Origin: a bacterium
GTDB taxonomy: Bacteria; UBA6262; WVXT01
Assembly: GCA_011773355.1 (NCBI GenBank)
Contig: WVXT01000031.1
Coordinates: 3,672-36,470, forward strand
DNA: 32,799 nucleotides
Direction of reading: 5' to 3'
Both the position numbers and the translations under genes were made by a program. Shown here in pieces: positions 9,959-12,728 of the stretch (positions are counted from its first letter, which is position 1; each line of letters opens with the position of its first letter). The notes under the pieces are model-generated. The model worked only from the letters and a program-made list of their open reading frames with translations, ran no database searches and had not been told where the DNA came from.

Positions 9959-10207
9959 ATGAAAGGGTATAATGTTGTCAGGAAAAAGATAGAGGACATT
10001 GTTGTATTAGTCAATTCGCTGAAACAGGAAAAAGCAAAGTTACTGGAAGAGATTGAAAGACAAAAAGAAGATATCAAATCTATGGAAGGAGAGAATAAAA
10101 CAGCAAAGAAAATAGTCGCTGAAGCAGAGCGCTTGGAAAAAGAAAAAAAAGCAGTTAAGGAAAGACTCCGGGTTTTGCTTGATCGATTAGAGAAAATGAA
10201 AGTGTAA
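9959..10207 (+). CDS. Small coiled-coil protein (ZapB-like in shape)
   Basis: An 82-residue, highly charged protein, helical throughout, with heptad-like spacing of leucine, isoleucine and valine (KKIEDIVVLVNSLKQEKAKL and onward). No catalytic motif is seen. AGAGG precedes the ATG, which lies 7 bases after the pheT stop and 24 bases before zapA. A short coiled coil next to zapA suggests a divisome-associated role like ZapB, but this rests on shape and position only. Confidence 0.7.
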   Translation: MKGYNVVRKKIEDIVVLVNSLKQEKAKLLEEIERQKEDIKSMEGENKTAKKIVAEAERLEKEKKAVKERLRVLLDRLEKMKV

Positions 10208-10231: not shown

Positions 10232-10531
10232 ATGCTCAAGAAAGATGAGGATAAGATTCCAGTAAAGATATATAACCGTGAATTCGTAATCGAAGGGGGC
10301 AATTGGGACCCTTTATATGTTTCGGCGTTGGCGAAATACGTTGATGATCAGATGAACAGAATAGCTAACACATCAAACATTGTAGATACAAGCCGAGTAG
10401 CAGTTTTGGCTGCTTTAAATATTGCTGATGAATTGTTCAGGTTGAGAGAGAGTAAGGATACCAGTGGCCAGGAAATATCAAAAAGATCTGATGAATTAAT
10501 CAAGCTGCTCGATCAAGCGTTAAAAAAATAG
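10232..10531 (+). CDS. zapA: Cell division protein ZapA
   Basis: A 99-residue protein matching the ZapA fold. The N-terminal strand region is PVKIYNREFVIEGG, followed by the diagnostic helix entry YVSALAKYVDDQMNRIA and the helix VAVLAALNIADELFRLRE, then a short coiled coil. ZapA binds FtsZ and promotes bundling of filaments at the division site. GAGGG lies five bases before ATG 10232. Its neighbours support the call: pheT and a coiled-coil gene upstream, and a 6S-like RNA directly downstream, as in the zapA-ssrS-ygfA order of gammaproteobacteria. Confidence 0.9.
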   Translation: MLKKDEDKIPVKIYNREFVIEGGNWDPLYVSALAKYVDDQMNRIANTSNIVDTSRVAVLAALNIADELFRLRESKDTSGQEISKRSDELIKLLDQALKK

Positions 10532-10565
10532 TTTCTATATTATTTAAATATGGTAGGTTTTTGTG

Positions 10566-10722
10566 GTCCCTGCGATGTGCGTGATGTGTTGACTATTTTA
10601 AGCCGACAAGTATAATTCAGGGAATCCGGAGTCTCTGGTAATCGTGGTTATCGGAGCAGGATACCCACTTTGAGTTGGGCCTTTAAAACAGTCAGACACA
10701 CGGCAGAGCGGGGACTTTTTTT
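10566..10722 (+). ncRNA. ssrS: 6S RNA (SsrS-like), ending in a U-run
   Basis: A rod-shaped RNA can be drawn. The end stem is GTCCCTGC (10566-10573) with GCGGGGAC (10708-10715). The inner closing stem is 10586-10604 with 10678-10699 (GTGT/ACAC, TGACT/AGTCA, TTTTAA/TTAAAA, GCC/GGC). There is a central bubble (10605-10619 and 10667-10677), then GGG..CC/GG..CCC, then a 9-bp apical hairpin (10633-10656). U7 follows directly at 10716-10722. 6S RNA binds sigma70-RNA polymerase by mimicking an open promoter. The motifs AGCCGA and GCCTTTAAAAC resemble E. coli 6S as I remember it. The position between zapA and a ygfA-type gene (with rarA inserted) is the classic 6S location. The 5' end is inferred from pairing. 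Confidence 0.8.
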
Positions 10723-10742: not shown

Positions 10743-12119
10743 ATGGAACTTTTTGCCAAGCAAGAATTAGAAACTATTAGAGATGTGCCTTTGGCTTTGA
10801 AGATGTCTCCCAGGAGACTTTCCCAGTTTGTGGGGCAGGAGCACATTTTAGGCAAGGGTAAACTACTCAGGCGAGCTATTGAGGCGGATAGAATTGTCTC
10901 TCTCATTTTCTATGGCCCATCAGGATGTGGTAAATCGGCACTGGCCAGAATAATCGCTGAACGGACGAAAGCGCACTTTGAAGAGCTAAATGCGGTGACT
11001 TCCGGGGTTGCTGATTTGAGAAAGATAATTGAGAGAGCCTGGCAAAAAATAAAGTTTTCTGGTCAGAAAACAATTCTACTAATCGATGAACTGCACCATT
11101 TTAACCGAAGCCAGCAAGACGCCCTGTTGCCAGACGTGGAGAAAGGGACAGTTACCCTGATTGGCATCACTACGGAGAATCCTTATTTTTATATTAATTC
11201 CCGGTTGCTTTCCCGTTCCCAGATTTTCGAATTTAAACCTCTGAGTAATGAGGAGCTAAAAGTTATTCTGAACAGGGCAATCGAGGACAGAGAGAACGGC
11301 CTGGGAAAGACGAGAATAAAAATTACTCCCCAGGCGCTAGACCATCTGATAAAAACTGCAAATGGCGACGCCAGGAGAGCGTTGAATGCGCTGGAAGTGG
11401 GAGTGATGACTACAAAACCGGGCCGAAGTGGAGAGATTAACTTTACCTTATCAGTTGCTGAAGAATCGATCCAGAAAAAGGCTGTGGTCTACGACAAGAA
11501 AGGGGATGAACATTACGATACGATATCGGCTTTTATTAAAAGCATGAGAGGTTCTGACCCGGATGCAACTTTATACTGGTTAGCAAAGATGATATACGCT
11601 GGTGAAGACCCACGGTTTATTGCCAGAAGGATTGTGATTTGTGCCAGTGAAGATGTAGGCAATGCAGACCCGCAAGCCCTGGTAGTAGCCAGTGCAGCTC
11701 TGGAAGCTTGCGAATTCTTGGGAATGCCCGAAGCCAAGATACCACTTGCTCAGGCGGCAATATATATTGCTTGCGCCCCGAAGTCTAATGCGGCTTACAA
11801 AGGAATAGATAAGGCTTTGACCGATATAGAAGAGAAGAAAGTTCTTAAGCCTCCGAAATATTTGACTAAGGTTGGACAGAAAGATTATAAATATCCTCAC
11901 AGTTACGCAAAAGGATGGGTGAAACAGGACTATTTGCCCGTGAAACGCAGGTACTATTTTCCCACAGAAGAAGGCTATGAGGCGAAGATTAAGAAGAGGA
12001 TGGAGGAACTGGAATCCCGGATTGCCAGGAGTGATAAGCCCTCCCAGAGGCAGAAGACAGGCCATTACGAGAAAAAAGCGAGCGGGCAAGGAAAGAGGGA
12101 TAAAGGCAGAACTTCTTGA
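10743..12119 (+). CDS. rarA: Replication-associated recombination protein A (AAA+ ATPase, MgsA/WRNIP1 family)
   Basis: A 458-residue clamp-loader-like ATPase that acts at stalled replication forks. It has Walker A GPSGCGKS at residues 58-65, and Walker [21 protein letters not shown], which is the RarA signature with His where Arg is common. Then come the sensor region [20 protein letters not shown], followed by [12 protein letters not shown] and the C-terminal tetramer domain ([23 protein letters not shown], then [18 protein letters not shown]). The last ~40 residues are a basic, Gln/Lys-rich tail. ATG 10743 has GAGGTAGGG just upstream. The gene starts 20 bases after the 6S-like RNA and ends 3 bases before the cyclo-ligase gene. 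Confidence 0.95.
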
Positions 12120-12122
12120 AAA

Positions 12123-12728
12123 ATGGAGGAGAAAAAAAGAAAGCTCAGGAAAGAATTCCTGAAGAAGAGAGATAACCTCTCCCGTGAGGAAATAGAATCT
12201 AACAGCGGGAAAATCGAAAAGAGGCTCTTTGCCTTACCTGAGTTCCATCGGGCAAAGACGGTTATGTTTTATGTGTCTTTTCGCAGCGAAGTGGCAACAG
12301 GGAAAATGATGAGAAATGCAATGAAATTGAAAAAGAGGATAGCAGTACCTGTGGTGCATGGAGAAAAGATAGTGGCATGCGAGATTAGAAATCCAAGAAA
12401 AGAACTCACCAAGGGAAGTTTTGGAATAAGAGAGCCGAAGAAAGAGTTCAGAAGGAGGGTGAATAGAAAAGAGATTGATGTGGTAGTTGTTCCTGGAGTA
12501 GTCTTTGATAACAGGGGAGGTCGCCTGGGGTATGGGAGAGGATACTATGATCGATTTTTGGGAAGTAAATCGACAAAAGTGACGATGAATCGCTCTCATA
12601 AATGCGCGCTGATTGGACTCGCTTTCGATTTGCAGATTGCCAGGAAAATTCCTCTCAAAAAGAAAGATGTGAAGGTTAATAAAATAATTACTGAAAGTAG
12701 GATAATAAACTGCAAGAATCGGCCATAA
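12123..12728 (+). CDS. ygfA: 5-formyltetrahydrofolate cyclo-ligase family protein
   Basis: A 201-residue protein of the family that uses ATP to convert 5-formyl-THF to 5,10-methenyl-THF, returning a storage or inhibitory folate to one-carbon metabolism. The N-terminus KKRKLRKEFLKKRDNLS is typical, followed by FYVSFRSEVATGKMM and the signature GVVFDNRGGRLGYGRGYYDRFL near residue 120-140. A basic insertion (KSTKVTMNRSHKC) follows the signature. It is 3 bases from rarA and surely in the same transcript. In enterobacteria the gene directly follows the 6S RNA gene; here rarA is between. Confidence 0.9.
   Translation: MEEKKRKLRKEFLKKRDNLSREEIESNSGKIEKRLFALPEFHRAKTVMFYVSFRSEVATGKMMRNAMKLKKRIAVPVVHGEKIVACEIRNPRKELTKGSFGIREPKKEFRRRVNRKEIDVVVVPGVVFDNRGGRLGYGRGYYDRFLGSKSTKVTMNRSHKCALIGLAFDLQIARKIPLKKKDVKVNKIITESRIINCKNRP

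Follow-up and report, generated by a model that had tools for sequence, protein, structure and literature searches.

6S RNA is a small bacterial RNA that acts as a promoter mimic and occupies RNA polymerase. In 6S RNA, the apical arm carries the -35-like region, and the central bubble carries the -10-like region on its 3' strand; the P2 or closing helix represents the downstream duplex (PMC8876501). Synthesis of the product RNA (pRNA) begins on the 5' strand of the bubble and proceeds into the closing stem (PMC8876501), and GG at positions 4/5 or 5/6 has been described for 6S product RNAs (PMC8414754). A position of 6S beside rarA has already been described in lactic acid bacteria (PMC8414754).

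The 6S RNA of the present locus resembles the SsrS RNA of E. coli (RF00013) in its full-length match to the model and in its closing stem, central bubble and apical arm; the two RNAs also have in common a conserved GCCGA adjoining the product-RNA start. Its neighbourhood, zapA-6S-rarA-fau, agrees with the gene order zapA-ssrS-fau of E. coli, but differs by the insertion of rarA between 6S and fau. At 155 nt it is shorter than the RNAs of E. coli (183-184 nt) and B. subtilis (6S-1, 190 nt), and its predicted product RNA would be initiated with G, whereas that of E. coli is initiated with A. In comparison with B. subtilis 6S-1 (bsrA), the start is on C in both (C40 in B. subtilis, predicted C10607 here) and rarA is nearby in both, although the orientation to rarA differs (PMC8876501, PMC8414754).

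A 6S RNA gene upstream of rarA

In the 32.8-kb window, which is the whole stretch of DNA that was analysed, the Rfam model RF00013 matched positions 10564-10718 over its full length (model 1-187) and gave a score of 61.9 bits (E 3.9e-10), which exceeds the cut-off of 46.4. The suggestion of an earlier note on this DNA, that a 6S-like RNA is encoded here, was therefore right. A search of this genome with RF00013 gave a single 6S copy, the one in the window. The stretch 10566-10722 folds far more stably than its shuffles (z -5.45), and the rod contains a closing stem, a large central bubble and an apical arm; when this sequence is folded alone, part of the bubble is paired. Upstream of 10564, the best promoter sites for the 6S gene itself reach only 8/12, and none was assigned. 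The features of the locus are as follows:

10232-10531, + strand: zapA (Pfam PF05164, 9e-18)
10564-10718, + strand: 6S RNA (SsrS) gene (Rfam RF00013; fold z -5.45)
10566-10583, + strand: 5' arm of the closing stem, partner at about 10699-10715 (Rfam consensus structure and minimum free energy (MFE) fold; pairs kept in all congeners)
10589-10594, + strand: TTGACT, paired segment of the P2/closing stem (+14 to +19 of the predicted pRNA template, downstream)
10605-10619, + strand: 5' strand of the central bubble, the template strand, containing TATAAT (Rfam alignment)
10607, + strand: predicted template base of the product-RNA start, equivalent to E. coli U44 (from the cmscan alignment)
10611-10616, + strand: TATAAT, not conserved in the genus (3/6 positions variable)
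10620-10666, + strand: apical arm, upstream and -35-like (Rfam alignment and fold; one compensatory pair change in congeners)
10667-10677, + strand: central bubble, 3' strand, taken as the -10-like side from the analogy with E. coli (Rfam alignment; role from PMC8876501)
10716-10722, + strand: run of seven T after the closing stem, terminator-like (sequence; kept in three congeners)
10743-12119, + strand: rarA/mgsA (Pfam MgsA_C, 2.2e-61)
12123-12728, + strand: fau/ygfA, 5-formyltetrahydrofolate cyclo-ligase (Pfam PF01812, 8e-46)

In the window, the genes run in the order pheT, an 82-residue ORF, zapA, 6S, rarA, fau and rny. The location of 6S upstream of rarA was also observed in loci from metagenome-assembled genomes (MAGs) of Omnitrophota, Elusimicrobia, Nitrospirae and Planctomycetes. 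The host phylum was represented in the comparison set by six genomes, and the host group is small. The 82-residue ORF (9959-10207, between pheT and zapA) is coiled-coil-like and has no Pfam match. The locus extends the known family by a 6S RNA whose lineage is poorly sampled.

Promoter-like boxes and the polarity of the mimic

The earlier note had drawn attention to two strings in this RNA, TTGACT at 10589-10594 and TATAAT at 10611-10616, and had proposed that the RNA itself offers sigma70 a literal copy of an open promoter, both boxes included. The strings are present exactly as claimed, with a spacing of 16 bases, and TTGACT-16-TATAAT matches the sigma70 consensus at 11/12 positions. TTGACT was also correctly placed in the paired closing/P2 stem, with a pairing probability of 0.79-1.0 with 10690-10695. 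TATAAT had been described as unpaired in the bubble; this holds in the Rfam consensus alignment but only in part in the single-sequence fold, in which most of the box (10613-10616) is predicted to pair with 10674-10677 (probability 0.54-0.71 in the ensemble of the free RNA).

When the 159-nt stretch is shuffled with its dinucleotides preserved, 0.08% of the shuffles contain an 11/12 site at a spacing of 16-18. The + strand of the 32.8-kb window contains two 11/12 sites, the second of which is located within pheT, and TATAAT is found 14 times per strand. The match of the boxes is uncommon, yet it was chosen after the fact and is not conserved. No paper reporting such boxes in 6S RNA was found in a literature search.

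In the cmscan alignment with E. coli ssrS, C10607 is positioned opposite U44, and the product RNA predicted from this base would read 5'-GUCGGCUUAAAAUAGU... At the level of sequence, GG is found at positions 4/5 of this predicted product, GUCGGCUU... Numbered from C10607, TTGACT occupies positions +14 to +19, and TATAAT occupies -4 to -9 of the template strand. The would-be -35 box is therefore downstream and is no -35 element of the mimic, and the would-be -10 box has the wrong sense on the template strand, so that the boxes run against the mimic. The template in the bubble is its forward strand, so that a forward TATAAT at this position is not what sigma would read. Any promoter-like string in a 6S RNA has to be interpreted according to the polarity of the mimic.

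A literal copy is suggested by the exact strings at promoter spacing and by the position of TATAAT within the consensus bubble. In the known mimicry, however, the -35 region is in the apical arm, the -10 region is in the 3' bubble strand and initiation proceeds towards the closing stem (PMC8876501), whereas here one box belongs to the downstream helix and the other to the template strand. Moreover, TATAAT is not conserved, and its last four bases are predicted to be largely paired in the free RNA. With polarity and strand both opposite to the known mimicry, and with TATAAT lost while the arms are kept, the proposal of a literal open-promoter copy is hardly credible.

The locus is very probably an ordinary 6S RNA of a little-sampled lineage, in which the pair TTGACT/TATAAT is coincidental. 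By analogy with the 6S RNAs that have been studied, it would imitate open promoter DNA in binding to the RNA polymerase holoenzyme that contains the housekeeping sigma factor. In this imitation, the upstream (-35) side would be represented by the apical arm, the -10 side by the 3' bubble strand and downstream DNA by the closing stem. Release would come after a short product RNA had been made, starting at about C10607 and proceeding towards the 5' end. TTGACT would then belong to the downstream helix as a conserved, paired segment, and TATAAT would be a variable, A/U-rich part of the bubble strand on the template side.

Conservation of the boxes and the possibility of an internal promoter

Three congeneric species, 93-94% identical in 6S, were available for comparison. 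All three retain TTGACT, the T7 run and almost the whole of the arms, whereas TATAAT is replaced by TGTAAA, TGTAGA and TGTAGA. Variable columns make up 3/6 positions in TATAAT against 10/153 elsewhere (Fisher p 0.0075), and no part of the RNA is more variable than the one that contains TATAAT. Two pairs are changed on both sides within the genus, although among only four sequences this covariation is not beyond that of shuffles (85/500). The earlier note had named beforehand a pattern that would speak against its reading, namely boxes kept without arms; the opposite was found, with the arms kept and one box lost. Because the boxes are reversed relative to the polarity of the mimic and are not kept together by close relatives, coincidence is the most likely origin of their match.

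In a 6S RNA of a related lineage (L033, positions 2098-2252), TATAAT is found in the same bubble strand, preceded at a distance of 17 bases by a weak CTGAGA; CCTGAG is located where the species of the window has TTGACT.

The two strings may also be read as DNA. In this species, a real promoter within the 6S gene would consist of TTGACT-16-TATAAT with a start near 10623 and would give a transcript reading into rarA. Such a transcript would not contain the 5' arm of the closing stem and could not form the 6S terminator, and rarA begins 20 bases past the T run. Consistent with this, the fold predicted for an RNA that begins at 10623 is not significant (z 0.02), and its MFE structure shows no hairpin adjoining the T run. 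The 11/12 match, rare in shuffles, the presence of TATAAT in L033 too, and the short gap between 6S and rarA (24 bases from the end of the Rfam match, compared with 126-135 in two congeners) point in the same direction. The gap of locus L035 is equally short (27 bases), however, without a strong internal site. None of the three congeners has an intact -10 hexamer, with positions 2 and 6 changed in every one and position 5 in two of them, so that the conservation of both boxes in close relatives, as looked for in a sigma70-type internal promoter, is not seen. No excess of such sites was found among 60 other 6S genes. An internal promoter is therefore unlikely. That a functional promoter exists in this species only, and that its transcript escapes the 6S terminator and expresses rarA, is quite improbable; if true, it would couple 6S and rarA oppositely.

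Between 6S and rarA, the three loci of congeners L031, L032 and L019 contain about 130-170 bases with GGGGCTAATCC-like repeats, which are absent from the species of the window.

A family-wide excess of forward promoter-like sites was also considered. Among a first set of 47 6S sequences, which includes the present finding itself and L033, 3 sites that scored 10/12 or better in this layout were counted against 0.31 expected, and TATAAT was counted 2 times against 0.39. This hint was gone in 60 newly drawn, independent 6S RNAs, in which 1 site of at least 9/12 was detected against 1.9 expected, with no site of at least 10/12 in this layout and no TATAAT. Promoter strings in the forward sense do not characterize 6S RNA.

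A closing-stem element in a sister family

In a sister family, the place of 6S just before rarA is occupied by an element of 86-100 nt, observed at about 1409-1494 of locus L112 (G005:C190) and on the reverse strand of locus L115 (G004:C53). The element keeps the closing stem of 6S (GTCCCTGCTATGTCTGTGATGTC ... CAGTAGAGCAGGG, followed by T7), without the central bubble and the apical arm. Rfam scans of the sister-family loci L111 and L112, even at E 0.5, gave no 6S, and none was found elsewhere in either sister-family genome. The element looks like a 6S RNA reduced to its terminal stem, and this apparent loss of everything except the closing stem may be the more useful lead on the loss of 6S. 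The remnant is perhaps kept as a terminator or as a leader of rarA.
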